Of a DNA stretch of 64,000 nucleotides, positions 687-63,478 are shown in pieces. A program made the translations under genes and the position numbers. How positions within the stretch are numbered: position 1 is the first letter of the stretch; the number at the start of each line of letters is the position of its first letter. The notes beneath the pieces were generated by a model. It was not told where the DNA came from. It searched no databases and was given only the letters and a program-made list of their open reading frames with translations. Source of the stretch: Bolinopsis microptera (Eukaryota > Ctenophora > Tentaculata > Lobata > Bolinopsidae); NCBI RefSeq assembly GCF_026151205.1, contig NC_087072.1:722875-786874 (forward strand). The letters are read 5' to 3'.

Positions 687-847
687 GTCAATGATGACAC
701 TGTCCATGGACATGATGAACCGGTTCGCGGGACTGAAGAAGTTCGTGACAGTACCACTGGACATCTACCTGTGTATTACTGCAGTTCTGAAGAAGTACCA
801 GACCTGCCTGCTTATCTCAGAGCGAGATACTGAGTTCGTGTTTGACG
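687..847 (+). CDS. MED12: MED12 exon A
   Basis: Acceptor CTCCGCAG ends at 686. The exon has one leading base, 53 codons and one trailing base (phase 1 end), with donor GTGGGT at 848. It reads MMTLSMDMMNRFAGLKK through LCITAVLKKYQTCLL to the end EFVFD, matching the human MED12 helical segment that has LCIVAVLRHYHACLIL followed by QVFE. An alternative donor GTAACA six bases on would break phase with the next exon. The last 26 bases and the donor are the seed of the 62-bp array that follows. Confidence 0.87.
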
Positions 848-2236
848 GTGGGTAACAATCTAGCTATTATATATTATCTACTAGCGAGATACTGAGTTCG
901 TGTTTGACGGTGGGTAACAATCTAGCTATTATATATTATCTACTAGCGAGATACTGAGTTCGTGTTTGACGGTGGGTAACAATCTAGCTATTATATATTA
1001 TCTACTAGCGAGATACTGAGTTCGTGTTTGACGGTGGTTAACAATCTAGCTATTATATATTATCTACTAGCGAGATACTGAGTTCGTGTTTGACGGTGGG
1101 TAACAATCTAGCTATTATATATTATCTACTAGCGAGATACTGAGTTCGTGTTTGACGGTGGGTAACAATCTAGCTATTATATATTATCTACTAGCGAGAT
1201 ACTGAGTTCGTGTTTGACGGTGGGTAACAATCTAGCTATTATATATTATCTACTAGCGAGATACTGAGTTCGTGTTTGACGGTGGGTAACAATCTAGCTA
1301 TTATATATTATCTACTAGCGAGATACTGAGTTCGTGTTTGACGGTGGGTAACAATCTAGCTATTATATATTATCTACTAGCGAGATACTGAGTTCGTGTT
1401 TGACGGTGGGTAACAATCTAGCTATTATATATTATCTACTAGCGAGATACTGAGTTCGTGTTTGACGGTGGGTAACAATCTAGCTATTATATATTATCTA
1501 CTAGCGAGATACTGAGTTCGTGTTTGACGGTGGGTAACAATCTAGCTATTATATATTATCTACTAGCGAGATACTGAGTTCGTGTTTGACGGTGGGTAAC
1601 AATCTAGCTATTATATATTATCTACTAGCGAGATACTGAGTTCGTGTTTGACGGTGGGTAACAATCTAGCTATTATATATTATCTACTAGCGAGATACTG
1701 AGTTCGTGTTTGACGGTGGGTAACAATCTAGCTATTATATATTATCTACTAGCGAGATACTGAGTTCGTGTTTGACGGTGGGTAACAATCTAGCTATTAT
1801 ATATTATCTACTAGCGAGATACTGAGTTCGTGTTTGACGGTGGGTAACAATCTAGCTATTATATATTATCTACTAGCGAGATACTGAGTTCGTGTTTGAC
1901 GGTGGGTAACAATCTAGCTATTATATATTATCTACTAGCGAGATACTGAGTTCGTGTTTGACGGTGGGTAACAATCTAGCTATTATATATTATCTACTAG
2001 CGAGATACTGAGTTCGTGTTTGACGGTGGGTAACAATCTAGCTATTATATATTATCTACTAGCGAGATACTGAGTTCGTGTTTGACGGTGGGTAACAATC
2101 TAGCTATTATATATTATCTACTAGCGAGATACTGAGTTCGTGTTTGACGGTGGGTAACAATCTAGCTATTATATATTATCTACTAGCGAGATACTGAGTT
2201 CGTGTTTGACGGTGGGTAACAATCTAGCTATTATAT
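822..2236 (+). repeat. 62-bp array carrying the exon A end and splice donor (about 23 copies)
   Basis: Period exactly 62 bp, nearly identical units. Each holds the last 26 exon A bases (GCGAGATACTGAG..TTTGACG), the donor GTGGGTAAC, and an AT-rich linker. One unit (about 1,033) has GTGGTTAAC. Reading through the first donor in the exon frame gives GAC GGT GGG TAA. Confidence 0.97.
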
Positions 2237-4547
2237 CTCTATTTGCCTGAGGGTATCTTGAGTCAGTAAGGCCTTGAGTCATGCCTTACCATAATATCTG
2301 ATCACTTTGAAATTGTAGAATGATGCCGTTATTTTACCTTCACACACTCCAACATTATGCTGACCGTAGTGGTAGACTGTATAGTAGTAAACTGCGTCCG
2401 TTCACACGATATTTGGCAAATAAGTAAATCGTGATAATTACATCATTTCACTGAGTAGTCCCAGGTTTGACGGGCCACATCAGCTGTGATGTCACCTTAG
2501 TTACTATGGTTACCAGCCAGTTACTATGGTTACCAGTCAGTTACTATGGTTACATGCCAGTTACTATGGTTACCAGCCAGTTACTATGGTTATCAGCCAG
2601 CTCGCCTAAACTAGAAACTCTTTTTACGATAGTTCACTGGAAATAAAACTTGACGAGTACCGAGAAGGATATAAAATGGAATATTTATGTTGCGACAGTA
2701 GTTAGTAAACCTGTTCGCAGAAGCAGCTCATCCTATTTGTAAACCGCTGTTACATTTATTCTTAAATTGAGTAACGTCAGCATCTCTCAAGTTGAGTAAC
2801 GTCAGCATTTCTTTATGTTTGACAAGTTTATTTAAAGAGTTTTATAGGATCCCTCTCAAGCAAGCAACCATATTAGCAGTTCAGCAACCATATTAGCAGT
2901 TCAGCAACCATATTAGCAGTTCAGACACGATGTTTAATAATATTACTGGCTAGTCGTCTCTGGTCATTAGAATATTAGAATATTTCGAATAGAATAATAA
3001 AATCTCTCATTTTACGATATTATTGACATCAAACTACCCAATAATGGTTAAGAGGGTGTTACGCTATGTTACTATGGTTACAATAATGGTTAACCACGAG
3101 GGTTATATTTTGAGTATGAGGTTTGTTAGTATGACGTTAATTTCTTATTACAACCACTTGTTGCCACTTCCGCCCAGAATCTTTGACGTGCGTCAAATGT
3201 CACGTCAAACATCTGGAGCCCTAGTGCTCAGTAGGGCTAGACTGGTTAGATATTACTCTGAACCTAGTAACCTTAGTAACCTAGTAACCTGTTAACCTGG
3301 TAACCTGGTAACCTTGTTGCTTGCACAAGAGCAATTCTAATTGCAAATCATAATTTCAAACTCAGCTTAAACATTGATATTAGATATGTACATGGCATAT
3401 ACAATGAATATTCAATATGAATTACATTTCAGATATGTGAATGACTGAATCGCTTGTAAACATTTTAAATTGTTTGGACGTTGGACACTTTTAGATAATA
3501 ATCATGGTATGAGAACCTTTCGTGCTTCATCAACCCGCGTTAATACCTGCCCTAAACAGTAAACATGGTACCTGCCCTAAACATGGTACCTGCCCTAAAC
3601 AGAATAGTTTGGACTTCATGTATATACCACGAAGAGGGTGTTTCACGCTAAACCAGCCAGTTACTATGCATGTATGGTTACGCTAAAATCAATAGTTGGA
3701 AATCCCATACACCGACTAAATATCTATTTTAAGTCTACCTACCAACTAAGTAAATAAAATAAAGTACGCCAAAGCTCTTAAATAGTTTGTTTTGCTGGAA
3801 CCATTGTTAGTCGTGGTCCCGGCAGTGTTAGCAAGTCCTGGTCCATGCAAAAAATAAGTGCCGGTCAATATTTGCATGTGATGTCACATGTGATGGTATG
3901 TTTTGAGAGAGATGTCACATGTGGCATCTCTCAAAACACTTGTTCTTGAACGGAAGGAGCATTTTAATATTGAACCACCCGCGATGTTCTTCATGATTGT
4001 CATAGAACGGTTGAAATTTCTTTCACCGCTAGCAATTAGATAAACGTCACTGAATGGATTCTACAAAAATACCTGGAAATTGAAGTTTGATGAACTGTCA
4101 TATAAACATCACCAAAACATCAGGATCGTGATGAAATAAAGTGGTTTGATCAATGTTTGTAGACATATTAATTACCATGGTAACCATGTGACTTGATTTA
4201 TTTCCATCCTGTCGGTGTTTGTTAAATGTTACTAAAATAAGAAACTGTTTAATATACTCCGGTGACTGGTCCTGACTGAGGCAGTGTCAGTGCTGTGAGG
4301 TCCTGTAGGCTGGTCTGGAAAGGTCACGTTACATTAGTGCTTATTGATTTTCAAACAAATCAATGAGATAGGGGATGTTGTTTGAGATAACCTGTCGGAG
4401 CTTGATCGATTCTATTAAGTAGCCCTCCTGTTGAACCCGACAGAATTGCTCAATCTGTGGTGTGTCCCACAGATCTCATGTAAACGTCAACCCCCCCCCC
4501 CCCCCCCCCCCACGCATTAGAATCTGACAGCTTCATGTTCATTTCAG
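2237..4547. other. MED12 intron A-B, remainder
   Basis: Small repeats only: 20-bp GCAACCATATTAGCAGTTCA x3 (2,871-2,925), CCTAGTAAC-type 8-mers (3,258-3,312), ACCTGCCCTAAACA x3 (3,539-3,601), a hairpin GTTTTGAGAGA..TCTCTCAAAAC (3,900-3,937), and a C run at 4,489-4,511. No coding seen. Confidence 0.8.
2497..2605. repeat. 20-bp GTTACTATGGTTAC repeat, 5 copies
   Basis: Same family as the copies before exon A, now on the other side of the 62-bp array. GTTACYATGGTAAC-like words recur across the whole window, including the transporter gene. Confidence 0.9.
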
Positions 4548-4660
4548 CCCTGTCCCGTTTAACTGAGAAAGACAGTCCGGTGAGTGCAGCTGAGAAGTGT
4601 ATCCTGGTGTACAGACAGGAGCTACACAAGGCCAGCCCTAAACTATCCAACAATCGAGAG
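4548..4660 (+). CDS. MED12: MED12 exon B
   Basis: Acceptor TTCATTTCAG ends at 4547. Two bases complete the codon split from exon A, then 37 codons end in phase 0 at donor GAG|GTGAAC. The peptide contains AAEKCILVYRQELHKASPKL, matching human [20 protein letters not shown]. A C run of more than 20 bases lies about 35 bases upstream of the acceptor, so the polypyrimidine region is unusually C-rich. Confidence 0.88.
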
Positions 4661-4896
4661 GTGAACTTTAGATTAGGTTCTATACTTACAACTACTTATT
4701 AACTAAGTATTTACTTTTCATAGTTGAAGTAGCTGTTAGCAGCTATCATACTTCCCCAAGTAATAACTGCGTTATAATTTCTCTAATATCTACGCTGAAA
4801 CTTTTAATAACATCTATTTAGATCAGAGAGCAGGCACACGTTTAAAGAGCAGGCACACGTTTAAAATCGTGCAGACTAATTCTGTTCCACCTCCAG

Positions 4897-5037
4897 GAGC
4901 CCAACAGCCCGAAATACAGCAGTTCGAAGAAACAGAGACTGAAAGCGATTCCTAGCAACATCTCCCCTCACTCGGACACATTTAAAGACTCTATCAGTAA
5001 CCCGCGCCATGTCAATATCATGGAGATGTCCGACAAG
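4897..5037 (+). CDS. MED12: MED12 exon C
   Basis: Acceptor CACCTCCAG ends at 4896; 47 codons in phase 0; donor AAG|GTAATT. The peptide begins EPNSPKYSSSKKQRLK and ends HVNIMEMSDK. It falls where human MED12 has a poorly conserved linker between the AERCILAYL and ILCAELT blocks. Sequence similarity is weak here; the call rests on phase, splice sites and position. Confidence 0.75.
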
Positions 5038-5635
5038 GTAATTAGTAACCTGCCTGACTCCGGCTACCTTTTCATTAATTTGTCTCAGGGTCGTTCAACT
5101 GTAAGTTCTACTTCAGAGCCGGACTCGGATAGATATAATAACATAAACCCGCCACGCAAAGGGTTTATATAACAGATCATCCCGCGCTAGCGGGATGATC
5201 TGATAAACACATACGAGTGCGCGCAGCGCACGAGTTTTGTGTTAATATGTAATCCCGAAGCGCCAGCTGAGGGATTACATTTATTTAGCCCTGAGCGTGA
5301 AGTGTTTATGGATTATAATTATCTCCGGCGATTTCGACAAGGGATTTATACTTTAGAAGACTAACTGTACTGTCCGGAACACGATTGGAAAGCAGTTCAT
5401 CAATCTGAATGTCAAACCGATCTGTCATAGTGGAGCAATAGCTTGAACGTTAACAGGAACAAGAGCTGGAAGGAGAGCAAGCAAAACAATACTATTTTTA
5501 GGGCACGGACAAGGGTAGCTGGCTAGTCGCCAAATTCTCACGCCACGCGTTGGAGAAATTCCAAGAATTAGCTGCTTTGGCAACGTTCCCAGGAATTTGC
5601 GTGTAAAAGAAGTGGACGGTTACGATGTTTCATAT

Positions 5636-5719
5636 CACGTGGTGCGCTTTCGTGTCACGTGGTATAGACTCGGCGTATGCTATTGGTGGCACGTGGTACG
5701 CACGTGACGCGCCCACGTG
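5636..5719. promoter_or_regulatory. cluster of five CACGTG E-boxes
   Basis: CACGTG at 5,636, 5,656, 5,690, 5,701 and 5,714, five in 84 bases. CACGTG is the canonical site of bHLH-zip factors (MYC, USF, MITF types). Function as an intronic enhancer is inference. Confidence 0.55.
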
Positions 5720-6134
5720 ATCGCGCGTCTAACTGTTCTACTATTATCGAGTTCTAATCAGCAGTATCATTGATTATTGTAAGTCGGAGAATTGAATGAT
5801 AAACATCAGTTACGACTAAAAAGCGGGCCGGGTTTATACAAATTTCCGGGGCGGGATGATATCACCTTGAGATGTTTATCTAACAGCGGGCCGGGCTGAG
5901 TGATAATATGATCCCGCGTCGAAATCCCGGAGATATTTATATAGTCATAGAACTAGAAGCTGTCTTAAAAGACTAGAACAACTGTTTGTTTGTTTATAGA
6001 ACCCGTCCCCAATCACAGTGCTGGCAAGCACGAACGGTGTCTTTATTGGGGGTATACTATGTACCCCCTTTACTATTATAACCCCTTTGGTACTCGTCGG
6101 AAGCCTCTTTCGTGCATGCGAAGCGTGCACTCCG

Positions 6135-6169
6135 GCCGGAGGCGGCGGCCGAAGGCCGCCGCCTCCGGC
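6135..6169. other. perfect 16-bp GC hairpin with GAA loop
   Basis: GCCGGAGGCGGCGGCC, loop GAA, then its exact complement, followed by a short T run. It stands out in an AT-rich intron. Confidence 0.9.
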
Positions 6170-7571
6170 AGGAGTTTTTCAGGCATTAAGACTCATCGGA
6201 AGTCGTTCAGCAGATTTATTTTTAGTTCAAAACATTCTAATTTGATGTCAAAGATGACAGGAATAAAAAATAGTTATGTTGAGATTTTTAAGAAATTTGC
6301 ATAAAATACTCGCCAGCACTGTTATACGAAATTCGGTAAAAAACCCAAAATCGCCATATTCAGGTGCCTTAAAAACCATGTTAAAATTGAGTTAGAGATC
6401 TGAAATTTTTCAGGGCGTCTAGACGTTGACCAAATCGACTGCAAATTAAAGTTTCAGGTTTCAGGAACATCGGGAAGTGGGTTTTCTAGAACCCCTGTTT
6501 TATGACAGATTGTCGTGATATCTATATACATATATATATATACATATATTCAGGGATAGACGCTTTGCCAGTCAATTGTAGCCTGTATTTAAGTGTCCAT
6601 AGATTCAAAAGTATAAAAGATACAGCCATTCCCGACCACAGGTCTTGCAAATAATTGTTTATACTTTAGTTTACATTGTATAAAAAAATTATTTGACGTC
6701 ATAAACACCCCTTGATGACGTCATCAAGTTAACCGTTTTTAAAACTTGATTTTTGACAAAGTAATAACTTTTAAAATTAATTTTAAACCATTAAGGAGTA
6801 ATTTTATTCAAAATCTGAGTAAATTTTCATCTTAGATAATTGTTCAAGCATTCTGAAAATCTATCGGAAAGTTTTTCTAGCTTGCTCCTTCATAAAGATA
6901 TTCGTCATTGAAGTTTGTGCTTTTTTGAAGAATTATTTTATAAAAACGTCAATTTTGCGATTTAGTATTCTCTGGTGTTGGGCCATGCCTTGGGTTGTGG
7001 AGCTCAGTTCTGCTTCCTATAGGTATAAATTGTGCATTAGGCTAGTTTTAAAGTTGAAAATCGAAAAGTTGCACACGTGGGGACACGCCCAAATTGATAG
7101 AAAATCGCTAAAATCACTTAAAATTGCTGTTTTCGTCATTTTCTGTCAACTTTAGAGTGCCGTTGTGATTACAGTTCTTCTTGAAATACTTTGAAACTTT
7201 GCATGCTTATCAAGCTATATATAAAACAATTACATGCAAAAATTTACGGCGATTCAATATTGGATGCGCACGCAACGTCCGCTCAAAGTTTGCACGTGCG
7301 AAAGGTGAGAATTTTGCTCATTCGTGATTTCCAACAAATTCTGCTTTGCCACGACAGTTTAATGTCATTATATATGAATTTAATGCCAACTTGAATGAGT
7401 ATTAAGTGGCATATTCAGTCAGTGATCGACCGATATGCTTCCCTAAACACAAGGAAATGTTTTTAAAGGAAAAATTTCGAAATCGTTGAAACTTCCTCCT
7501 TATTAATGAAGATATCAGTTTATATTTCGACTTTATAAAGTACCCTGACATTATAATCAAAAAGAGATGAT

Positions 7572-8083
7572 ATTTTACCAAAACCCATAATCATGGGTAG
7601 AGTGGACCGCTGTCAGTGTCTCTCTTTCCCAAACAAAAGGAAATGATATTAATTTGATTGACCGTTCTCAAATGCAAAATGATACCGAGAATGAAATCGG
7701 TCGCTCGCTTTTCCCATTCATTTACAATTGTAATAGATTAAGAAGAACTACCCAAAGGCAGCTGTACTCGGCAATGAAGATTCAATAAACTTCAGCTTGT
7801 TCAATAAGTAATAACTACCACCCTTGTCCCTTACCCCGAAATACTATCGACCCGAACGCAACCCAAAGAGATTTTTACAGCATCTGATTGATGTAATCAA
7901 TCGAAACTTAATTATACAATTCGTAAGCCGTGAATGAATGGGAAAAGCGAGCGACCGATTTCATTCTCGGTATCATTTTGCATTTGAGAACGGTCAATCA
8001 AATTAATATCATTTCCTTTTGTTTGGGAAAGAGAGACACTGACAGCGGTCCACTCTACCCATGATTATGGGTTTTGGTAAAAT
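7572..8083. mobile_element. foldback/MITE-like inverted repeat
   Basis: Arms 7,572-7,721 and 7,933-8,083 are nearly perfect reverse complements (about 150 bp) around a loop of about 210 bp. Outer tips read ATTTTACCAAAACCCATAAT. About 110 bp of the same arm recurs at 62,212-62,322, showing a dispersed family. No coding capacity. Confidence 0.85.
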
Positions 8084-8325
8084 CTCGTATCGGAAAATGA
8101 CTAAACTCAGGTCTGAGTGTGAATACGGGTGGTACCTGCAAGAGTGTTCATTAAGCATTTAGAGTTCTGTAAAACTGCAGTTACAATTGTGCTAGAGTAT
8201 TTTTAGTATATACGATTGGTATCAGATATATATCCCTACATGCTTCCAAAATTTGTAAAGCCGTAGTAGACTAGAACAACTATTAATATCCTGAATTGAC
8301 CATGTCAAAATATATCAATCCTTGA

Positions 8326-8411
8326 ATTCTTACTGTCATCAAGATGCAGTTAGGCCTAACCAGTTAGCCCTAACCAGTTAGGCCTAACTGCATCTTGGTG
8401 ACAGTTAGAAT
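8326..8411. repeat. 35-bp-arm hairpin
   Basis: Arms 8,326-8,360 and 8,377-8,411 pair with two mismatches; loop 16 bases. The arms contain GATGCAGTTAGGCCTAAC. It may be a short nonautonomous element. Confidence 0.85.
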
Positions 8412-8677
8412 GGTTTCCGGAGTTTCCCAGTTTCACTGAAGTATTTCTCACTACCACTTGCCCGGTGACTGAAAGCTTCTGCCACCGTTTAAGTAATACT
8501 AATAGCGAGAAATCAGAAATGTTACTGTTAGCCAACAATACTTCGTTTGAGGAATAAACTGAAAATAGTTGCAAAAAGGATATTGCTGATTTTATAAGCT
8601 CTTAAAACAGAATTTAATCAAAAAAGAAACGGAGTTATAATTTTAATTTGCAAAAGTTTCACACGTGGAATTGAAGA

Positions 8678-9105
8678 TTGCCCCCTTTTTAAGATTGCCC
8701 CCTTTTTAAGATTGCCCCCTTTTTAAGATGCCCCTTTTTAAGATTGCCCCCTTTTTAAGATGCCCCCTTTTTAAGATGCCCCCTTTTTAAGATGCCCCCT
8801 TTTTAAGATGCCCCCCTTTTAAGATTGCCCCCTTTTTAAGATGCCCCCTTTTTAAGATTGCCCCCTTTTTAAGATGCCCCCTTTTTAAGATGCCCCTTTT
8901 TAAGATGCCCCCTTTTTAAGATGCCCCCTTTTTAAGATTGCCCCCTTTTTAAGATGCCCCCTTTTTAAGATGCCCCTTTTTAAGATTGCCCCCTTTTTAA
9001 GATGCCCCCTTTTTAAGATGCCCCTTTTTAAGATTGCCCCCTTTTTAAGATGCCCCCTTTTTAAGATGCCCCTTTTTAAGATTGCCCCCTTTTTAAGATG
9101 CCTCT
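8678..9105. repeat. 16-bp C/T-rich minisatellite, about 26 copies, before MED12 exon D
   Basis: Unit AAGATGCCCCCTTTTT (or AAGATTGCC...). It ends about 30 bases before the exon D acceptor, giving an abnormally long pyrimidine-rich approach to the splice site. Confidence 0.95.
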
Positions 9106-9135
9106 GAAATACAAAATCAAACGCTGTGTGTTCAG

Positions 9136-9314
9136 ATCGGTAAGGACGAGACAGCAGGGCAGAGTTTCGTTTCCACGGTGATTGTGGAGGTGTGTTCCGG
9201 CTACAATAAACACAAACTCCCGGACCTTGTGAAACTGTGTGCGGAGCTCACTACTCAACACAACTACCTGGAGGCTATCTGGATATCTGCCATCAACTGC
9301 CCTCAGCAGTGCGG
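9136..9314 (+). CDS. MED12: MED12 exon D
   Basis: Acceptor GTGTGTTCAG ends at 9135; 59 codons plus two bases; donor G|GTTAGA at 9315. It reads IGKDETAGQSFVSTVIVEVC, then LVKLCAELTTQHNYLEAIW, ending NCPQQC plus GG. It aligns with human [32 protein letters not shown] and NGTCG. The start lies about 35 bases after a C/T-rich 16-bp array that may act as an extended polypyrimidine region. The following intron is about 29 kb. Confidence 0.9.
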
Positions 9315-9420
9315 GTTAGAATTCATTTTTAAGTATTTCTCATAGGATTACTTACGGCGGTAGTTTCGCTAAAGTAACTCTGCTTTTATCTCTCGATTAA
9401 AAGATGAGTAACGACCACAT

Positions 9421-9497
9421 CATAATATGTCCCAGTGACCCCACCCTAATATGTCCCAGTGACCCCACCCTAATATGTCCCAGTGACCCCACCCTAA
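9421..9497. repeat. 24-bp tandem repeat, 3 copies
   Basis: AATATGTCCCAGTGACCCC plus ACCCT, about 100 bases after the exon D donor. No exon copy within. Confidence 0.9.
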
Positions 9498-10184
9498 TCT
9501 GTGCTATGCCAGTACCACGAAACAATGTTTGGATCTTGAAAATGGGATAATACTGTCGAATTAAGAACAATGTTATGGTTCGTATATAGCTAGCTGACTG
9601 GTAGTTGGGTCCGAGTAGGTTTGGTTAATCTGCGGCCAAACTGGATACGAATTACATAATTACATAATTACATAATTCAAACGACAGATTGTTGTTTTCA
9701 AAGCTCTCTAATAACATGTGCTAAGCTTTGTTCAACAAGCGAGATAACAATCTGCAGTCTGAAGTTGTACGAAAATTTAAAATTATGAATATACCATAGT
9801 TTTTAGGTTACAGCGACAAGAATTGAGTAAAAACTTAATTCTAGAAATTAGCTCATATGAGAAGCAAATAATAGCTGAACTCCGAAAAGCCACTGATTTC
9901 GTGAATTCGACACCTTTCAGCAGCTTCAGTATTGCTTTCTTGCATTGTGGTTTGAACATTTTCAAATATTGGCATGACACTGAGCTGAGTCTAAAAACAA
10001 CTTTGAGTGCTTGAAGAATATTAAATTTCTATGTGTGGCAGTGTTGCAACCGTTAATTGGATGAGGGCTGCGACTCCTTCATAAAACCATTCATAGTGGA
10101 AAAGAATAATAAATTGGACAATATTATGCCGTTTATAATTGTGGTTAAAATCGAATAAAATGTCTGTTAAACTTTACTGTTGAA
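9498..10184. other. intronic, nothing recognised
   Basis: AT-rich; TACATAAT x3 at 9,652-9,677. Overlapping short frames on both strands at 9,783-10,014 have no support. Confidence 0.6.
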
Positions 10185-10378
10185 GTTAAGAAAGATTTAC
10201 TGCCAGCAGTAAGTTTTCCATCTTTTTGTTACCGGATACGATTATATTGGCATCATCTGCGTATAAAATAAACTTTGCCAGTGTGCTTATGCCAGGTAAG
10301 TCATTAATGTATAGGACAATGAGTAGAGGACCCAGGATGCTGCCTTGCGGTACTCCGTACTTCATATCTCTACACGAG
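10185..10378 (-). mobile_element. non-LTR retrotransposon reverse transcriptase fragment
   Basis: Read on the - strand, this gives [20 protein letters not shown], then DLPG and [17 protein letters not shown], i.e. the GxPQG and YADD motifs of a LINE-type reverse transcriptase (jockey/CR1-like wording). About 60 codons are open, ending in a stop after [11 protein letters not shown]. No endonuclease or 3' end is attached, so this is a dead fragment. It lies in the MED12 intron about 0.5 kb below the GPCR stop. Confidence 0.9.
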
Positions 10379-10820
10379 GAATCAGCGCCATTATTTTACT
10401 GATATATTTGGCAATTTACCATATATTTATATTGCAGATCTCCTGTTGCAATGCTGTATCTTGTACAATGAATAGTTCATTTTGAGGGGAATAAATAAAT
10501 AAATAGCAACAACAATTACCCGCCAATGAAAGTAAAAATTAATAAACATGAACACGTTAATGATAATCGCATCAGCCAAAGCGTTTAAACAAAAATCTAG
10601 TTAAAATAAATATTTAAATCTCATAAAACCCCCGAAAATGGATCTTTAAAAGTAGGTTTGAAACTGCGGTCCTTATTATTTAAATGCACAAATGCACTTT
10701 CTCTATTATAATGCCACACAGCCATATCTTTCACTACCAATCAAAAACAACTAAAAATGAAATAGATCCGTTCCTTTGCTTTCGGTAACTTATTTAATCT
10801 TGTATTATGTATTATGTAAT
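10379..10820. other. between LINE fragment and GPCR stop
   Basis: AT-rich. Contains the receptor's presumed 3' UTR (- strand) with an ATTAAA signal close to the stop. Nothing else seen. Confidence 0.5.
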
Positions 10821-11963
10821 CTATAAAGATTGAATTGACCCATTATAATTTACCGATACGGATAAGTTTTGCTGCGAACATTTGTCAATGGATAGTCTCT
10901 GATTGATTCGACTCATAGCAAAGAACTCGGTAACAGTAGAATCCCTCTTGCTACATGATTTTCTGGGAGTTGCAATCTGCATGCTCTTCCTATGTATAAA
11001 TGTTTTGCAGCCAGGCATTCTCCAGAGGTAGAGGAGAGGGTTTATAGCCGCGTTCAGGGAGACGCTCATCAGGGACACAAAGTTGTCATAGTACAACATG
11101 TACTGACCGTTGTAGTCGAAGGAGTGGAAGTCAAACCTGTAGTCACAGTGATAGTCTATAGTCTGCAGGATCTCACTGACCACTAGGGGGACGTTGAGGA
11201 AGGTGTAGACCCCCGTGAAGAGGAGGATGGTCATGGTGGCTCTGTTGCGGGACTTCTGGAGCTCCTTCCTTCCTGAACCCTCTCGGACACACCCACTGTC
11301 CACTTTCTTTAATGTGATTCTGATGGAGAGGAGGACGCTGAAGAAGACAAAGAACATGGGCAGGACGAAGGTGAAGATGCGCACCACGTCACTCAGCAGC
11401 ATGATGTTCTTGTCAGTTATACTGGGGAAGAGTAAGACACATCTTGCCATGGGTCTCACAAAGTTCACATCTGCCCTCTGTTGGAATTGGAAGGCCACTG
11501 TTTGTCCTATCTGTAGGAGACAGTAGCCCAGGATAACGAGGAGTGAGGGGGCGACCCGCTGCTTGTTGAAGGGCTGCATGAGGTAGTAGGTCCGGGACCC
11601 GCAGAGCACCACCACTAGGAAGATGCTGAGGCGGGAGGTGAGGTGCCAAACATAGGTCCACACGTTACACATCACCTCGTTACCAAATATCAGACCAGGC
11701 TCGCGGGCGGACAGGAAGGAGACTCCTACTGCTAGAGACGCGATACTAGTCGCCATGTCCGTCAGAGATATTATCTTGTAGAGTGTGTTTGGGAGATCTT
11801 TATTCCGTGCCATGAAGTAACAGAGACTGAGGATGTTGCCGATAAGCCCGAAGAAGAAACAGAGACAGTAGACAACTCCGTAACCCATATCCAGAACGTT
11901 GGAATACTCGATCTCCTCCGTAGTGTAGAGTCCTGTCGGTGTCGGGCTGGTTGTCTGGTTCAT
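10821..11963 (-). CDS. orphan class A (rhodopsin-like) G protein-coupled receptor, intronless
   Basis: A 380-residue seven-helix receptor in one exon, antisense inside a MED12 intron. Start chosen at the ATG giving MNQTTSPTPTG; NQT at residues 2-4 is an N-glycosylation site. TM1 has GLIGNILSL (Asn43, position 1.50), TM2 has ISLTD (Asp69, 2.50), Cys99 is the 3.25 cysteine before TM3, and Arg124 sits exactly 25 residues later (3.50). The usual DRY is SRT here, so Asp3.49 is replaced by Ser. TM6 has TFLNVP, TM7 ends NPLLY, and the tail is Ser/Lys-rich. An ATTAAA-type poly(A) signal (- strand) lies about 25 bases after the stop at 10,793-10,798. The ligand cannot be named; family style recalls cnidarian orphan receptors. 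Length is normal and I see no frameshift. Confidence 0.9.
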   Translation of the reverse strand: MNQTTSPTPTGLYTTEEIEYSNVLDMGYGVVYCLCFFFGLIGNILSLCYFMARNKDLPNTLYKIISLTDMATSIASLAVGVSFLSAREPGLIFGNEVMCNVWTYVWHLTSRLSIFLVVVLCGSRTYYLMQPFNKQRVAPSLLVILGYCLLQIGQTVAFQFQQRADVNFVRPMARCVLLFPSITDKNIMLLSDVVRIFTFVLPMFFVFFSVLLSIRITLKKVDSGCVREGSGRKELQKSRNRATMTILLFTGVYTFLNVPLVVSEILQTIDYHCDYRFDFHSFDYNGQYMLYYDNFVSLMSVSLNAAINPLLYLWRMPGCKTFIHRKSMQIATPRKSCSKRDSTVTEFFAMSRINQRLSIDKCSQQNLSVSVNYNGSIQSL

Positions 11964-14900: not shown

Positions 14901-15334
14901 TCGCGTATTTCGATTTCCACTGTGGAGTAAGAACGATTTTAACGCTCAGAAAATTCAACGAATTCAAAAAGCGCGGCGTTAATTTGATCTGCGCGCGTAT
15001 TTCGGACAAATTTTAGACAGATTCCGGACTAAATTTAACAGGGTCTAAATTTAATTTTTCGGGCTTATTGATTGGAAACTTCACTTATTCTTACGTATTT
15101 CTGTCGAACATTGAACACGCCGTATTTTGAGCCGATTTTTTGACGTATTTAACAACGATGACTTAAAGTTATTGAAAAAGTCTTTTCTGCAAGACAAAGG
15201 GCATTCGCGCTGCAGATAGCCAATATCACCGCTAAAGATATTACAAATACTTGAACATATATAATATTATATTATAGCACCCTCCGCTCAAAGGGAATTT
15301 TGCAACTAACTCGGAGCACTTGTAATAACTAGCT
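11964..15334. other. GPCR upstream region and MED12 intron DNA
   Basis: A tandem duplication of about 88 bp (12,151-12,225 and 12,239-12,312, GGTTGAAGAAGTTAAGATAG) lies about 200 bases before the receptor start. A CT microsatellite is at 12,392-12,416 and a G-rich run at 12,804-12,895. Diverged repeats sharing GAAGGTCGTAGA and CACCAAAAT lie at about 14,210 and 14,392. No coding seen. Confidence 0.6.
12804..12895 (+). other. G-rich block with G-quadruplex potential
   Basis: Ten or more runs of four to ten Gs separated by TA, GA or CC within 92 bases on the + strand, about 0.8 kb upstream of the receptor start on the opposite strand. Confidence 0.75.
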
Positions 15335-29368: not shown

Positions 29369-29511
29369 TAAGTTACCCAGGCTTAATAAACACTGTGAAT
29401 GAAGATATGGCGGAGTGACAGGCTGGGCGCCATCCAGTAAAGAGTAAGCTTAAAAGTGGGAAGAGAAATTACGCTCACAGCAATGTAGGGTTCCTTTGTG
29501 ATAGTCTAAAC

Positions 29512-42103: not shown

Positions 42104-42189
42104 GTTAGTCATACGCTTCCTCAAACTCTTCAAATAGCAGTCAATGACAGAGACGCTCCCCCACCCCCCCCCCCCCCCCCCCCCCCCCC

Positions 42190-42395
42190 AAAGTAACGCT
42201 TGTTTCCCCTCAGAGCACCTGAAATAACCCTTGTTTCCCCTCAGAACCCCCAATGTAACGCTTGTTTCCCCTCAGAACCCCCCAAAGTAACGCTTGTTTC
42301 CCCTCAGAGCACCTGAAATAACCCTTGTTTCCCCTCGGAACCCCCAATGTAACGCTTGTTTCCCCTCAGAACGCCTCAAATAACGCTTGTTTCAG
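42190..42395 (+). repeat. 31-bp acceptor-like array before MED12 exon G
   Basis: About six imperfect units of GCTTGTTTCCCCTCAG followed by AGCACCTGAAATAA or AACCCCC..., resembling the real acceptor and exon start (CTTGTTTCAG|AGCACCTGAAG). It lies just downstream of a 30-base C run (about 42,160-42,189). Confidence 0.9.
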
Positions 42396-42616
42396 AGCAC
42401 CTGAAGCCGATGGCAGTGTTAAAGAGGATCTGTTCCCAGACCTGGGTGCCGGAACTGTGTCTGTCCACCCCGGAGAAGTTAGTGTCTATCAACTACCTGG
42501 CAGATAAGGAGATTACACCCCACAACGCCCAGCTCCTGCTCCATCTCATTTGTAATCCTCAATCTACTGACATGCCTTCTACTGACCCTACCGAACTTGT
42601 CGGAAACATCATCAAG
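42396..42616 (+). CDS. MED12: MED12 exon G
   Basis: Acceptor GCTTGTTTCAG ends at 42395; two bases, then 73 codons in phase 0; donor ATCAAG|GTTTAT. It contains [30 protein letters not shown] and ends LVGNIIK, matching human VLRSICQQEWVGERCL, AQRLMQLICYPH and the IKRILQN region. Both ends of this exon are duplicated into flanking arrays: acceptor-like copies at 42,190-42,395, and about 15 copies of its last 72 or so bases plus donor at 42,703-44,998. Confidence 0.92.
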
Positions 42617-44998: not shown

Positions 44999-45394
44999 AT
45001 AATATCTTGTTTTAGGTTTGTCATATTGTGACCTCTACATCAAGATTCAAGAAGGTTACTGGGTCTATATATATATAAAGAAGACAACCAAAATGTTTGC
45101 AACGGCCTTATTAATATACAACTTATGAAGCGTTAGCAACACACGAAATTGCCAATAATTCGATATGTTTCTCGATAACTCATAATATTTCAATTTGTCA
45201 ATTATCGCGGTGGTTACGAGCTCGAAAAATGTCGACTAGCATACTAATAGTAGTGAATTACAAGGATATTTGAGTCTACATCATCTTTAATAAATGTATA
45301 ATATACTTATATAATATAGGTGCGGCCAACTAAGCTAAGTAAAGTAGTAATATCCCGTAACAAGCATAAGCTTGGTAATATCCTGTTAAAATCA
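44999..45394. other. unique intronic gap between two junction arrays
   Basis: AT-rich, with no repeat units of either neighbour and no exon. Confidence 0.6.
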
Positions 45395-48256
45395 CCTGTT
45401 GTACCCCCCACCCAACCTGTTGTACCCCTCAGAATATGGACATGTGTAACCTGTTGTACCCCTCAGAATATGGACATGTGTAACCTGTTGTACCCCTCAG
45501 AATATGGACATGTGTAACCTGTTGTACCCCTCAGAATATGGACAATGTGTAACCTGTTGTACCCCTCAGAATATGGACATGTGTAACCTGTTGTACCCCT
45601 CAGAATATGGACAATGTGTAACCTGTTGTACCCCTCAGAATATGGACATGTGTAACCTGTTGTACCCCTCAGAATATGGACATGTGTAACCTGTTGTACC
45701 CCTCAGAATATGGACATGTGTAACCTGTTGTACCCCTCAGAATATGGACAATGTGTAACCTGTTGTACCCCTCAGAATATGGACATGTGTAACCTGTTGT
45801 ACCCCTCAGAATATGGACATGTGTAACCTGTTGTACCCCTCAGAATATGGACATGTGTAACCTGTTGTACCCCTCAGAATATGGACATGTGTAACCTGTT
45901 GTACCCCTCAGAATATGGACATGTGTAACCTGTTGTACCCCTCAGAATATGGACATGTGTAACCTGTTGTACCCCTCAGAATATGGACATGTGTAACCTG
46001 TTGTACCCCTCAGAATATGGACATGTGTAACCTGTTGTACCCCTCAGAATATGGACATGTGTAACCTGTTGTACCCCTCAGAATATGGACATGTGTAACT
46101 TGTTGTACCCCTCAGAATATGGACATGTGTAACCTGTTGTACCCCTCAGAATATGGACATGTGTAACCTGTTGTACCCCTCAGAATATGGACAATGTGTA
46201 ACCTGTTGTACCCCTCAGAATATGGACAATGTGTAACCTGTTGTACCCCTCAGAATATGGACATGTGTAACCTGTTGTACCCCTCAGAATATGGACATGT
46301 GTAACCTGTTGTACCCCTCAGAATATGGACATGTGTAACCTGTTGTACCCCTCAGAATATGGACATGTGTAACCTGTTGTACCCCTCAGAATATGGACAT
46401 GTGTAACCTGTTGTACCCCTCAGAATATGGACATGTGTAACCTGTTGTACCCCTCAGAATATGGACATGTGTAACCTGTTGTACCCCTCAGAATATGGAC
46501 ATGTGTAACCTGTTGTACCCCTCAGAATATGGACATGTGTAACCTGTTGTACCCCTCAGAATATGGACATGTGTAACCTGTTGTACCCCTCAGAATATGG
46601 ACATGTGTAACCTGTTGTACCCCTCAGAATATGGACAATGTGTAACCTGTTGTACCCCTCAGAATATGGACATGTGTAACCTGTTGTACCCCTCAGAATA
46701 TGGACATGTGTAACCTGTTGCACCCCTCAGAATATGGACATGTGTAACCTGTTGTACCCCTCAGAATATGGACATGTGTAACCTGTTGTACCCCTCAGAA
46801 TATGGACATGTGTAACCTGTTGTACCCCTCAGAATATGGACATGTGTAACCTGTTGTACCCCTCAGAATATGGACATGTGTAACCTGTTGTACCCCTCAG
46901 AATATGGACATGTGTAACCTGTTGTACCCCTCAGAATATGGACATGTGTAACCTGTTGCACCCCTCAGAATATGGACATGTGTAACCTGTTGTACCCCTC
47001 AGAATATGGACATGTGTAACCTGTTGTACCCCTCAGAATATGGACAATGTGTAACCTGTTGTACCCCTCAGAATATGGACAATGTGTAACCTGTTGTACC
47101 CCTCAGAATATGGACATGTGTAACCTGTTGTACCCCTCAGAATATGGACATGTGTAACTTGTTGTACCCCTCAGAATATGGACATGTGTAACCTGTTGTA
47201 CCCCTCAGAATATGGACATGTGTAACCTGTTGTACCCCTCAGAATATGGACATGTGTAACCTGTTGTACCCCTCAGAATATGGACATGTGTAACCTGTTG
47301 TACCCCTCAGAATATGGACATGTGTAACCTGTTGTACCCCTCAGAATATGGACATGTGTAACCTGTTGTACCCCTCAGAATATGGAGTATGGACATGTGT
47401 AACCTGTTGTACCCCTCAGAATATGGACATGTGTAACCTGTTGTACCCCTCAGAATATGGACATGTGTAACCTGTTGTACCCCTCAGAATATGGACATGT
47501 GTAACCTGTTGTACCCCTCAGAATATGGACATGTGTAACCTGTTGTACCCCTCAGAATATGGACATGTGTAACCTGTTGTACCCCTCAGAATATGGACAT
47601 GTGTAACCTGTTGTATCCCTCAGAATATGGACATGTGTAACCTGTTGTACCTTTCAGAATATGGACAATGTGTAACCTGTTGTACCCCTCAGAATATGGA
47701 CAATGTGTAACCTGTTGTACCCCTCAGAATATGGACATGTGTAACCTGTTGTACCCCTCAGAATATGGACATGTGTAACCTGTTGTACCCCTCAGAATAT
47801 GGACCATGTGTAACCTGTTGTACCCCTCAGAATATGGATATGTGTAACCTGTTGTACCCCTCAGAATATGGACATGTGTAACCTGTTGTACCCCTCAGAA
47901 TATGGACATGTTTAACCTGTTGTACCCCTCAGAATATGGACATGTGTAACCTGTTGTACCCCTCAGAATATGGACAATGTGTAACCTGTTGTACCCCTCA
48001 GAATATGGACAATGTGTAACCTGTTGTACCCCTCAGAATATGGACATGTGTAACCTGTTGTACCCCTCAGAATATGGACAATGTGTAACCTGTTGTACCC
48101 CTCAGAATATGGACATGTGTAACCTGTTGTACCCCTCAGAATATGGACAATGTGTAACCTGTTGTACCCCTCAGAATATGGACATGTGTAACCTGTTGTA
48201 CCCCTCAGAATATGGACATGTGTAACCTGTTGTACCCCTCAGAATATGGACATGTG
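45395..48256 (+). repeat. 34/35-bp array carrying the acceptor and start of exon H (about 83 copies)
   Basis: Each unit holds GTTGTACCCCTCAG plus the first 14 exon bases AATATGGACATGTG and TAACCT. Units with an extra A (GGACAATGTG) are 35 bp. The last unit is the real acceptor and exon. Open reading frames seen across it are artefacts of the period. Confidence 0.97.
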
Positions 48257-48398
48257 GACCATGAGGTCGGCTCACCTGAAAGTAAGGCTGATAAGAGTAA
48301 GGAGTAAGGAGAATAACGAGGGGGAGGAGGAGGAGGCGGCCACCCTCAAACTCATCACTGACGCTGTCGTCTGTACTCTGGGACATCTCCTCACCGAG
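48243..48398 (+). CDS. MED12: MED12 exon H
   Basis: Acceptor TACCCCTCAG ends at 48242; 52 codons, phase 0 at both ends; donor GAG|GTAGGG. It begins NMDMWTMRSAHLKVRLIRVR, matching human LDQWTMRQSSLELQLMIKQ, then an acidic stretch NEGEEEEAA and LITDAVVCTLGHLLTE. Its first 14 bases and acceptor form the 34-bp unit repeated about 83 times upstream; this is the last and only fully coding copy. Confidence 0.92.
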
Positions 48399-48844
48399 GT
48401 AGGGTTTAAGGGAACAATAATAATTTTAATCTAGTTGCCTGGTAACCTAGTAACCTAGTAACCCAGCAACTCTATTAACCTAGTAACCCAATAACTAATA
48501 ATAGTAATCAGTAGTCAATGACTAGGGTTATTGCGATGAAAAGTTACATGGAATGATGGCGTCTGGGCTTGGGACCAGCTCACACTCATAGTACACTACA
48601 TTAATACATTAATGCCCTCTGAATACCATCAGCTAAAGAAATGAATATGTTAATAGTAGTAGTAGTAGTAGTAGTACAGCAGAGTGTCAGAATTATTGGC
48701 GTGTTTGAAATTTTATGTGTATTTTATGATGAAATCAATATTTTTCGACGGGTCATAACTTTACTTCTGAATATCGAAATTACTGGTCTGTAGACAAAAA
48801 TGTAGTAGTAAGTGTCACGTGACCTCTAACCTGGTTCCCCACAG
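48399..48844. other. MED12 intron H-I
   Basis: CCTAGTAAC-type 8-mers at 48,440-48,490 and a GTA microsatellite at 48,652-48,677; otherwise unique. Confidence 0.7.
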
Positions 48845-48944
48845 ATAGCACGCGGAGGGTGTAAGAACGCAACTCTCTGGCTGCTCCCCACATTCATCAA
48901 CAAGCTTCACGACCAGGTCAAGGAGCACCTCATCAAGTGGCTAG
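48845..48944 (+). CDS. MED12: MED12 exon I (last one recognised)
   Basis: Acceptor TTCCCCACAG ends at 48844; 33 codons plus one base; donor G|GTAAGT. It contains NATLWLLPTFINKLHDQV and HLIKWL, aligning with human [20 protein letters not shown]. Human MED12 runs on for several hundred residues; I could not find the next exon in either strand's flanks to the window end. Confidence 0.87.
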
Positions 48945-54165: not shown

Positions 54166-54726
54166 TTATCTGACAGAACTTTCGCCTGTGTCGTCCAACT
54201 TAATCTCCTTCAAACTCAACCGTTTCTGCTTCTCCGCGGTGATCTTGGAGAAGAAGATCCCGTACCCGAAGTAGATTATGAGCCCGACAATGCAGTAGAT
54301 AACCAGCTGTTTCAAGGCTACCACCTCCAGATGAAAGAGAAGCAGGAGGTTTACAAAGACTGAGAACCCCTGAACAAACGGTTTACCCGGACTTTTAAAA
54401 GACAGTGTCCCGTCCTCCTCTTGTGCCTTTAAAGGAATCTTGCATCTGATGAGAGTGAGACTGACTATCATGATGATAGCAAGGACCACCTCTGAAACAA
54501 TCACTGCAGTGGACTGTTCGAGGAATGCAGTGAGGAATGCCAACACGATGGTGGCCAGCAGGAAGACACACATGAAGATGATGAAGAGATGTTTTCTGGC
54601 GTGAGTCTTCTCTGCGGTCAGTGGAGTTTCCTCGGTTTCTTCCATATCTGGGTCCGTTAGGTCGTAGGAGAGGATCATTACTGCTAACGCTGTGATCACA
54701 AACACTGTCAGGGTTCCACCCGAGAT
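54166..54726 (-). CDS. CAT-type transporter exon 5 with stop
   Basis: Acceptor CCTCTCCAG; 186 codons then stop at 54,166-54,168. It begins ISGGTLTVFVITALAVMILS (human MSIGTLLAYSLVAACVLVL), has an acidic cytosolic loop DPDMEETEETPLTAEK, two helices, then the CAT C-terminal domain with LSFKSPGKPFVQGFSVFVNL and IVGLIIYFGYGIFFSKI, and a charged tail. Confidence 0.94.
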   Translation of the reverse strand: MSGGTLTVFVITALAVMILSYDLTDPDMEETEETPLTAEKTHARKHLFIIFMCVFLLATIVLAFLTAFLEQSTAVIVSEVVLAIIMIVSLTLIRCKIPLKAQEEDGTLSFKSPGKPFVQGFSVFVNLLLLFHLEVVALKQLVIYCIVGLIIYFGYGIFFSKITAEKQKRLSLKEIKLDDTGESSVR

Positions 54727-54911
54727 CTGGAGAGGTTTAGGTTAGTTTCAATATCTTAAAATATAGTGGCAATCAATAATCAATATCCATCATGTTTATA
54801 GAAATATGGATCATGGACGGAAATATTCTATGGTCAAAAATCAAGATTACAACTAAGATAAAATCATCTTATTATCTTTTAAACAACTCTAAAGTAACCT
54901 AAAGTAAACAA

Positions 54912-55362
54912 CTCACCATATGACTGAGGGTATCGAACTCGTACACGATACTGGACAGTATCCCCACCACGCTGCACACCACCACATTCCACATGGGCAC
55001 CAACCTAGTAACCTAGTAACCTAGTAACCTAGTAACCTAGTAACCTAGTAACCTAGTAACTCACCATATGACTGAGGGTATCGAACTCGTACACGATACT
55101 GGACAGTATCCCCACCACACTGCACACCACCACATTCCACATGGGTACCAACCTAGTAACCTAGTTACCTAGTAACCTAGTAACCTAGTAACCTAGTTAA
55201 CCTAGTAACTCACCATATGACTGAGTGTATCAAACTCGTACACGATACTGGACAGTATCCCCACCACGCTGCACACCACCACGTTCCACATGGGCACCAA
55301 CCTAGTAACCTAGTTACCTAGTAACCTAGTAACCTAGTAACCTAGTTAACCTAGTAACTCAC
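54912..55362 (-). repeat. three intronic copies of the transporter exon 4 end plus donor
   Basis: Copies at about 54,912-55,000, 55,059-55,148 and 55,208-55,297 hold the last 80 or so exon 4 bases and GTGAG, separated by runs of GGTTACTA(GG) (- strand). Six exon-part sites differ from the exon in one or more copies: CAC/CAT, AAC/AAT, AGC/AGT, GTG/GTA, TTC/TTT and ACC/ACA, all synonymous. Confidence 0.96.
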
Positions 55363-55604
55363 CATGTGACTGAGGGTATCGAACTCGTACACGATACTGG
55401 ACAGTATCCCCACCACGCTGCACACCACCACGTTCCACATGGGCACCTGAGTCCTCTTGTAGACACTGTTCAGGAAGGGGAACAGCAGGCCGTCCTCCGC
55501 CACGGAGTACACTACGCGGACTACTGTAGTTACAGTGCAGAGTCCGCACGAGAATACTGTGAAGATCAGCCCCGCTGTTACTACGTACTGTGGTAGTGTC
55601 AGTC
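55363..55604 (-). CDS. CAT-type transporter exon 4
   Basis: Acceptor GTCTCCCCCAG, donor CACATG|GTGAGT; two bases plus 80 codons. It reads LTLPQYVVTAGLIFTVFSCG, RVVYSVAEDGLLFPFL and ends EFDTLSHM. Both junctions are copied: the acceptor in a 53-bp array (55,605-56,052) and the last 80 or so bases plus donor three times in the downstream intron (54,912-55,297). Confidence 0.93.
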
Positions 55605-56052
55605 CTGGGGGAGACAGGTTCAGTTACCATGGTAACTCTGTAAGTCACATGTCAGTCCTGAGGGAGACAGGTTCAGTTACCATGGTAACTCTGAGGGAGA
55701 CAGGTTCAGTTACCATGGTTACTCTGTAAGTCACATGTCAGTCCTGGGGGAGACAGGTTCAGTTACCATGGTTACTCTGTAATTCACATGTCAGTCCTGG
55801 GGGAGACAGGTTCAGTTACCATGGTTACTCTGTAATTCACATGTCAGTCCTGGGGGAGACAGGTTCAGTTACCATGGTTACTCTGTAATTCACATGTCAG
55901 TCCTGGGGGAGACAGGTTCAGTTACCATGGTTACTCTGTAATTCACATGTCAGTCCTGGGGGAGACAGGTTCAGTTACCATGGTTACTCTGTAATTCACA
56001 TGTCAGTCCTGAGGGAGACAGGTCCAGTTACCATGGTTACTCTGTAATTCAC
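55605..56052 (-). repeat. 53-bp array carrying the acceptor of transporter exon 4 (about 8 copies)
   Basis: On the - strand each unit ends GTCTCCCCCAG|GACTGACA, i.e. acceptor plus the first 8 exon bases, preceded by GTAACCATGGTAACTGAAC. Some copies have CTCAG instead of CCCAG. Using an outer copy would read GGA CTG ACA and then hit TGA within one unit. Confidence 0.94.
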
Positions 56053-56162
56053 ATATTGGGACAGTGTTTCCAATGGAATATTTGAGTCTGCAGGTTCAAG
56101 GTTGGTGATGTATTTCTAGTGTGTAATGTGTATACTTATTACTTATATAGAGATAAGCTTAC

Positions 56163-56821
56163 CTTTACGTTTGAGAGATCCAATAAGACCTGTGTTTCCC
56201 CCGACCTCATACCACGGTTCAATGAAAGCGATGGAGAAAGCTGTTACCACGTACAGAACCAGCACTATCAGGAAGGAGCCCATGGTAGCCCGAGGGAGAT
56301 CCCGTTTAGGGTCCACGGACTCCTCCGCTAGAGTCACAACTGACTCCAACCCCACGAATGCGAAGAAAGCAGTCCCCGCTCCCGTCATGATGCCGCTGAA
56401 CCCGAACGGAGCGAACCCCGTCCTGCCGTCCGCTGGATTAACCACTCTGGAGAGGTTAGCAACATCTCCGTTCACCAGCGCCACTATGTTGAAGGTTAGC
56501 AGAGATATCGCAGAGACCCCAGCTATGGCAATGTTGAGATAGGACACTGTCTTTATTCCTGCCATGTTGATAGCCATGAAGAGGAGCATGATACCAATAG
56601 CGATCAGATCTGTGTGTAGCAACCAGTCAGGAAAGTTTGAGCTCTGCCATTCTTGGACAGTCCCATTAATGAGGAACTTGTCGATGTTGTCAGACAGTCC
56701 CAGGGTTAACATTGGGGCCTGAATGATCAGCTCTCCGATCAGGAAGAAACCGGAGATGGCAGCTGCGAGTTCTCCCATTGAGAAGTAAGTGTAAACGTAG
56801 GAGGAACCAGTGCAGGAGTAC
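56163..56821 (-). CDS. CAT-type transporter exon 3
   Basis: Acceptor TAACATCAG (upper end), donor CGTAAAG|GTAAGC (lower end); one base, 219 codons, one base. It begins YSCTGSSYVYTYFSMGELAA (human [20 protein letters not shown]), includes an extracellular loop with sequon NGT, and FAPFGFSGIMTGAGTAFFAF, FVGLESVVTLAEESVDPKRD and PRATMGSFLIVLVLYVVTAF. Its acceptor and first 44 or so bases recur three times in the upstream intron. Confidence 0.95.
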
Positions 56822-57436
56822 CTGATGTTAAAATATTGTGAGGATTCATGTGACCTAGTAACCTGGTAACTTAGCAACCTAGTAACCTAGTATTTAGTAA
56901 CCTAGTAACTTAGTAACCTAGTAACTCAGTAACCTAGTAACCTAGTAACTATGAAGAAGTAAGTATAAACGTATGAGGAACCAGTACACATGCAGGAGTA
57001 CCTGATGTTAAAATATTGTGAGGAGTCATGTGACCTAGTAACCTAGTAACCTAGTAACTTAGCAACCTAGTAACCTAGTATTTAGTAACCTAGTAACTTA
57101 GCAACCTAGTAACCTAGTATTTAGTAACCTAGTAACTTAGTAACCTAGTAACTCAGTAACCTAGTAACCTAGTAACTATGAAGAAGTAAGTATAAACGTA
57201 GGAGGACCCAGTGCAGGAGTACCTGATGTTAAAATATTGTGAGGAGTCATGTGACCTAGTAACCTAGTTACTCAGTAACCTAGTAACTTAGTAACCTAGT
57301 AACCTAGTAACCTAGTAACCTAGTAACCTAGTAACCTAGTAACTATGAAAGTATGAAGAAGTAAGTATAAACGTAGGAGGACCCAGTGCACATGCAGGAG
57401 TACCTGATGTTAAAATATTGTGAGGAGTCATGTGAC
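56776..57436 (-). repeat. intronic copies of the transporter exon 3 acceptor and start (three plus the exon)
   Basis: Copies near 56,956-57,006, 57,184-57,230 and 57,358-57,410 hold AACATCAG|GTACTCCTGC and about 44 exon bases, with CCTAGTAA runs between. Exon-part differences: TCC/TCA, GGT/GGG and TAC/TAT (all synonymous) and an in-frame 6-base insertion in two copies. Confidence 0.95.

Positions 57437-63447: not shown

Positions 63448-63478
<31 letters not shown>

Follow-up and report, generated by a model that had tools for sequence, protein, structure and literature searches.

Tandem arrays built across exon-intron junctions of two unrelated genes in the ctenophore Bolinopsis microptera

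A minisatellite with multiple splice donors was reportedly described in 1995 in an interferon-induced transcript, said to be that of human 6-16 (IFI6), with one donor in each unit. Internal tandem repeats at exon-intron boundaries have been reported in genes of human segmental duplications, where 162 alignments were reduced by manual checks to 27 intron modifications (PMC2812944). In Drosophila, novel introns arose via sliding or tandem duplication (PMC2891723) and direct repeats at introns were tied to break repair (PMC2809761). Small tandem duplications arise at staggered breaks through fill-in by DNA polymerase alpha-primase (PMC8355091). Here we analysed a stretch of 64,000 nucleotides from the ctenophore Bolinopsis microptera (NCBI RefSeq assembly GCF_026151205.1, contig NC_087072.1, positions 722,875 to 786,874 of the forward strand; hereafter the window), which is free of any N and carries eight tandem arrays whose units contain exon-intron junctions. 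The first-pass annotation of this DNA knew of no described mechanism that would seed minisatellites at splice sites. This was too strong: duplications at staggered breaks are described (PMC8355091), and junction-crossing tandem repeats as such are already in print, in a potato gene (PMC4974935) and in human genes (PMC2812944).

We propose, with a probability of about 0.55, that the arrays derive from break-repair duplications of junctions, which were tolerated, were expanded by unequal exchange and still exchange sequence with functional exon copies. The newly found element, and the part most worth following, is a set of exon-derived copies that vary almost exclusively at silent positions.

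Anatomy of the eight arrays

Arrays were located with Tandem Repeats Finder (TRF) and then cut into units, and the junctions were also checked by self-BLAST. TRF recovered the eight arrays, with bounds at most a few bases away from those given in the first-pass annotation, whose claim that they stem from real junctions of two unrelated genes was borne out by TRF, unit dissection, self-BLAST and homology. The genes are a MED12 fragment on the + strand and a CAT/SLC7A1-like transporter on the - strand, with 18 and 8 junctions. Eight of these 26 junctions are duplicated, four donors (arrays 1, 2, 4 and 6) and four acceptors (arrays 3, 5, 7 and 8), each array repeating the splice site of the adjoining exon together with 8-83 exon bases. 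The lariat templating put forward earlier fails on this point, since an intron lariat holds no exon bases and these exon bases are contiguous within the units.

Five arrays belong to MED12. Array 1 (821..2236) repeats the donor of exon 687-847 in a 62-nucleotide (nt) unit made of 27 exon bases, 25 intron bases and a 10-nt filler; it has 22 whole units, identical in 21, and one partial unit. Array 2 (38470..39305) repeats the donor of exon 38309-38498 in 26 copies of a 32-nt unit (29 exon and 3 intron bases, without filler). Array 3 (42185..42405), at the acceptor of exon 42396-42616, has a 31-nt unit with a higher order of 94 nt and is the weakest of the eight: the exact 10-base exon start is found in two of its seven units and the others have diverged, so that it spans the junction unit by unit in part only. 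At the donor of the same exon, array 4 (42542..44999) has a unit of about 162 nt, with 75 exon bases, 12 intron bases and a filler bearing (AACCTAGT)n, in 15 copies plus a shortened last copy. Array 5 (45414..48256), at the acceptor of exon 48243-48398, comprises 83 copies of a 34-nt unit (19 intron bases, 14 exon bases and one more). The three transporter arrays lie on the - strand. Array 6 (54910..55447) repeats the donor of exon 4 (55604-55363) in a 149-nt unit with 83 exon bases, about 7 intron bases and a (AACCTAGT)n filler, the exon part being present four times. Array 7 (55597..56054), at the acceptor of that exon, has a 53-nt unit of 45 intron and 8 exon bases without filler, with the exon bases in eight of nine acceptor copies. 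Array 8 (56781..57436), at the acceptor of exon 3 (56821-56163), has a unit of 180-221 nt with 32 intron bases, 41 exon bases and a (AACCTAGT)n filler, and again four exon parts. All eight were resolved by TRF and unit dissection.

The junction lay within every whole unit of arrays 1, 2, 4, 5, 6 and 8 on dissection. TRF boundaries alone covered six of the 26 junctions, and arrays 3 and 7 required unit dissection. When all 26 junctions were searched by self-BLAST with 60 nt on either side (E ≤0.05, 4 nt or more matched on both flanks of the junction), a second junction-crossing copy was present at these eight and at none of the other 18. Two exons are flanked by arrays on either side (MED12 42396-42616 and transporter exon 4), and in every affected intron the opposite end lies outside that array. 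The arrays behave as minisatellites, with head-to-tail units of about 10-100 base pairs (bp) in many copies, with the qualification that units are larger in arrays 4, 6 and 8, which contain microsatellite fillers, and copies are few in arrays 6 and 8.

Protein alignments to the MED12 structure 8tq2_C and to CAT1 continue through the junctions of arrays 1, 4, 5, 6, 7 and 8. The coding sequence therefore came first and these arrays copy the exon; the converse order, an array from which an exon was later recruited, is rejected for these six on the strength of the same protein alignments. For arrays 2 and 3, reading frame and splice motifs alone placed the exon ends.

The sequences originally duplicated are all shorter than 100 nt. 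With the incomplete final copy of each array taken to represent the starting sequence, and with segment lengths read by eye from the unit dissection, we obtained about 52, 32, 31, 88, 33, 92, 53 and 78 nt for arrays 1-8. The joins carry a filler of 10 nt in array 1 and of 1 nt in array 5, no filler in arrays 2 and 7 (0- and 1-base overlap), and long microsatellite (AACCTAGT)n fillers in arrays 4, 6 and 8. A 14-base sequence, ACTATGAAGAAGTA, stands beside (AACCTAGT)n in the fillers of both array 4 and array 8, which belong to different genes; allowing one mismatch at most, it has 18 matches in the window, all in these two arrays, where 0.06 would be expected. In array 8 our reading of the units has ACTATGAAGAAGTA joined to the exon over a 7-base overlap. 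It is as if the shared filler had been copied from one type of template. Segments below about 100 bp, blunt or short-overlap joins and an occasional filler, all judged by eye, are the anatomy expected of break repair. Introner-type elements, which would appear as scattered, nearly identical introns that bring splice sites with them, were not seen in the window, as only the (AACCTAGT)n fillers recur among arrays 4, 6 and 8 and the splice sites derive from local exons.

Each copied splice site was then treated as a decoy and joined in frame to the neighbouring exon. A premature stop resulted for all 164 decoys, within retained sequence for 163 and in the frame-shifted exon for one. The 65 decoy donors (22, 25, 15 and 3 in arrays 1, 2, 4 and 6) all led to a stop in the retained sequence, 5, 12, 24 and 9 nt past the true donor, respectively; 98 of the 99 decoy acceptors (6, 82, 8 and 3 in arrays 3, 5, 7 and 8) led to one in the added sequence, the exception being the nearest decoy of array 5, with its stop in the frame-shifted exon. 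Translation of decoy-extended exons is excluded for the decoys examined. Only the edge copy could then be productive, an outcome that would follow from selection on the protein with no special mechanism. Reading frame and homology likewise indicate that the productive splice site is probably the edge copy on the side of the exon body, in agreement with the first-pass annotation.

The annotation had also raised selection for decoy sites. If selection retained the extra sites as decoys or spares, their splice motifs should be better kept than their surroundings, and array 4 gives a hint of this, with 0.0074 changes per site and copy in splice columns, 0.0167 in exon columns and 0.0412 in intron and filler columns. 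The corresponding rates in array 5 (0.0047, 0.0044 and, for intron, 0.0035) show splice columns as variable as the rest, and the sole change in array 1 sits in the donor. In these three arrays, for which column variation was used, splice motifs showed no consistent advantage in conservation over the other columns of the unit; with a stop behind every decoy as well, we regard such selection as most improbable and the decoys as presumably neutral.

Silent variation in the exon-derived pieces

Variable sites in the exon-derived pieces were scored as synonymous or nonsynonymous in each gene's own frame. Arrays 3 and 7 were left out. So were the shortened last copy of array 4 and, in array 5, 17 of 83 copies, of which 16 have insertions. 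In array 8 a frame-keeping 6-nt insertion, present in two of four copies, was removed before the count and one C/T difference inside it stayed uncounted. In arrays 4, 6 and 8, 14 of 15 variable exon-derived sites were synonymous (5/6, 6/6 and 3/3), against about 25% expected (P = 4e-8). Under ten mutation models P ranged from 9e-9 to 2e-5, which rejects mutation bias as the source of the pattern. Over the five arrays with scorable variation the count was 15 of 19 (P = 5e-7); the exon part of array 1 did not vary.

Of the 49 synonymous positions in arrays 4, 6 and 8, 14 were variable, compared with one of the 152 nonsynonymous positions. The noncoding sequence that can serve as a yardstick is small and the outcome depends on its choice. 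With 69 hand-picked columns (2 variable), which omit the microsatellite part of array 4's filler and all filler of arrays 6 and 8, synonymous sites varied more than noncoding ones (P = 7e-5; 0.005 without the splice columns) and nonsynonymous sites (1/152) did not differ from noncoding ones (2/69, P = 0.23). This points to young arrays whose silent variants were supplied by functional exon alleles. The filler of array 4 varies in 11 of 75 columns, partly via 8-nt shifts. With all of this filler counted (13 of 126 columns variable), synonymous sites again exceeded noncoding ones (P = 0.005) and nonsynonymous sites fell below them (P = 4e-4), which points instead to copies under constraint, for example by write-back into the exon. 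Independent neutral decay of dead copies fits neither control. The arrays and the exons are most simply linked by exchange with functional exon copies, which is needed under either control.

In array 4 the variants are reshuffled: five of 15 site pairs violate the four-gamete condition, and the 15 copies comprise nine distinct exon parts. At offset 53, the one site tested for position, copies close to the exon carry the exon's own base more often than distant ones (P = 0.012). If the assembly had joined allelic copies or reads head to tail, silent-only variation would also be the outcome, and positions 62800-64000 consist of homopolymer runs, low-complexity noise that probably marks a poor contig end. 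However, nine distinct exon parts are too many for one diploid, 21 of the 22 units of array 1 are identical, and the window has many arrays that hold no exon bases. An artefact of this kind appears very unlikely.

Placement and proposed origin of the arrays

We propose the following course of events. Each array would have started from a small tandem duplication of about 31-92 nt straddling an exon-intron junction, probably made by error-prone repair of a staggered double-strand break; extra DNA would sometimes have been copied in between, as (AACCTAGT)n filler in arrays 4, 6 and 8. A duplication over a junction could be tolerated, as an intact splice site remains beside the exon body while the surplus exon sequence ends up in the intron; wholly exonic duplications would alter the protein and be lost. 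Growth may have proceeded by unequal exchange or by slippage. Slippage, already suggested in the first-pass annotation, is compatible with array growth but leaves the fillers and the synonymous-only variation unexplained. The exon pieces of arrays 4, 6 and 8 would have kept exchanging with functional exon copies, either the edge copy or other alleles, and as a result would carry almost only silent variants.

An array whose units contain a junction must start from one unit over that junction, and the more apt null is therefore one of unit placement. TRF rows were merged by hand to 54 clusters, the final 1.2 kilobases (kb) being excluded, of which 20 were counted as minisatellites (unit at least 20 nt, at least 3 copies); seed lengths of the eight arrays were fixed by hand from the unit dissection. 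For each array a single unit was put at a random position of the collapsed sequence, positions entirely within an exon being disallowed. Eight of the 20 minisatellites span a junction where 0.65-0.82 were expected, and eight were never reached in 20,000 simulations; the expectation was 0.84 in a repeat run with slightly different array bounds and 1.2-1.3 for all 54 clusters. With placement restricted to each array's own intron, 8 of 16 were found against 2.2-2.9 expected (P = 4e-5 to 8e-6, or 3e-4 to 1e-3 for all 41 intronic clusters). For the six strict arrays, without arrays 3 and 7, P was 0.003 within the own intron, and 6e-5 to 4e-3 under uniform placement, the upper value allowing for a GC preference. 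Such a preference (weight 1.7, derived by hand) raised the expectation for the eight to about 1.45 (P = 1e-4), too little to explain the excess. At 1-60 nt from junctions minisatellites showed no excess (1 against 0.98 expected) and all 54 clusters a weak one (6 against 2.8, P = 0.06), so that proximity alone is not the cause. Within the window, the excess of junctions holds under this null.

Several points weigh against the proposal. Arrays cover 49.7% of the 62.8 kb considered, and from coverage one would expect 12.9 of the 26 junctions to be included, or 9.7 without a 12.5-kb array; the eight observed are no excess. The number of junctions that the first-pass annotation found striking is thus striking under unit placement and unremarkable under coverage. 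The window was moreover picked after the fact for this very pattern, which weakens all P-values for the excess, and the excess could shrink genome-wide. As to the silent variation, all three changes in array 2 are nonsynonymous, one of them a stop, each in a single copy; array 5 shows no silent-only pattern, with one scorable change (synonymous) and one in a partial codon, and some of its copies have frame-shifting insertions. The two noncoding controls do not settle whether allele supply or constraint on the copies accounts for the silent-only state, and allele supply would require a high silent diversity, with a Watterson theta of 0.08-0.17. Silent diversity as high as this is known only from hyperdiverse animals. 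Break repair itself is deduced from the anatomy alone.

The coverage of the window and its selection are also what ordinary chance would call upon: in repeat-rich DNA with introns that are short once collapsed, and with exonic duplications purged, arrays would come to lie over junctions that are in no way special. Six of the eight arrays do sit in introns with a collapsed length of 112-631 nt, which provide about 2.0 of the 2.2 expected under own-intron placement. The unit-placement results, both over the collapsed sequence and within own introns, the small effect of GC preference and the lack of a minisatellite excess at 1-60 nt speak against this view, which we hold to be unlikely, albeit a serious contender. 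In another view exonic DNA is seeded more generally, for example when methylated CpG within gene bodies is repaired, and the junction arrays are the surviving edge of this process. Donors and acceptors are equally affected, and the CpG observed/expected ratio, at 0.63, is lower in exons than in unique noncoding sequence (0.86), a difference compatible with gene-body methylation. The arrays themselves are, however, low in CpG (0.49), and no within-exon arrays are left to reveal a process aimed at exons; we consider general seeding improbable.

A wider version of our proposal, in which exon ends are a preferred birthplace of minisatellites in this lineage and the copies co-evolve with the exon as banks of silent alleles that can also write back into it, is doubtful and offered tentatively. 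If junction arrays are common in the genome, they would give a direct view of exon edges seeding intron growth and of the tolerance for dozens of near-identical competing splice sites. With the silent-only copies one could then test for gene conversion that links coding exons to adjacent noncoding DNA. Such conversion may be a hidden source of variation in exons, and would advise caution in treating intronic sequence as neutral.

Gene models were assembled by hand and then frame-tested. The MED12 fragment (687..48944, +) has nine exons with agreeing phases and GT-AG ends (687-847, 4548-4660, 4897-5037, 9136-9314, 38309-38498, 41938-42103, 42396-42616, 48243-48398 and 48845-48944), supported by reading frame and homology; its 475-amino-acid product matches 8tq2_C with E = 3e-21, and no Pfam family was found above the cut-off. 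The transporter (54166..58027, -) has five exons on the same grounds (58027-57886, 57720-57597, 56821-56163, 55604-55363 and 54726-54166) and a product of 575 amino acids that matches CAT1 (E = 5e-65) and amino-acid permease families. Frames agree over every exon of both genes. A 29-kb MED12 intron contains a reading frame of a 7tm_1 rhodopsin-family receptor (10821-11987, - strand, E = 4e-10). As a set, MED12, a CAT-type transporter and this receptor point to an animal genome. A 12.5-kb satellite with about 438 copies of 28-nt units and with 40-nt variants also lies inside a MED12 intron (15348-27802). Positions 50373-53565, downstream of the last identified MED12 exon, hold a perfect inverted repeat with arms of 1260 nt and a 673-nt spacer, which is probably a young transposon or fold-back element. 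A 50-base sequence in three copies (7595-8060 and 62233-62282), two of which, at 7595 and 8060, face each other, is likely a transposon end; its copies had zero mismatches to a search pattern with one free position. By eye, GTTACCATGGTAAC-like palindromes underlie short repeats at 600-654, 2499-2600, 13302-13343, 29965-30016 and 55605-56054. We take these palindromes to resemble RFX/X-box sites.

Comparison with described systems

The duplications attributed to DNA polymerase alpha-primase fill-in (PMC8355091) are, like the segments at the start of our arrays, tandem and shorter than 100 bp; no link to splice sites was noted in that account, and the pathway is deduced here from anatomy. In Drosophila (PMC2891723, PMC2809761) exonic sequence likewise recurs at introns, in tandem or as direct repeats, but there it concerns new introns, not arrays inside introns. 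The potato RNA-dependent RNA polymerase gene (PMC4974935) resembles our acceptor arrays in that a tandem duplication across an acceptor adds a second splice site; it differs in that a single extra copy made a new intron, whereas here there are many copies, none usable in frame. The human boundary repeats (PMC2812944) are, like our arrays, minisatellites at exon-intron boundaries, with units of about 30 bp. These belong to recent paralogs and have about four repeats on average, some of which are retained in transcripts or form new introns.

Among the titles and abstract openings of the open-licence papers listed, none described a region with arrays at many of its junctions, or intronic exon copies that vary at silent sites only. 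The minisatellite of the interferon-induced transcript, as reported, shares with our arrays units that carry splice donors. Unlike it, the arrays of this window involve eight junctions, donors as well as acceptors, in two genes, with up to 83 copies and, in three of the arrays, variation that is nearly all silent.

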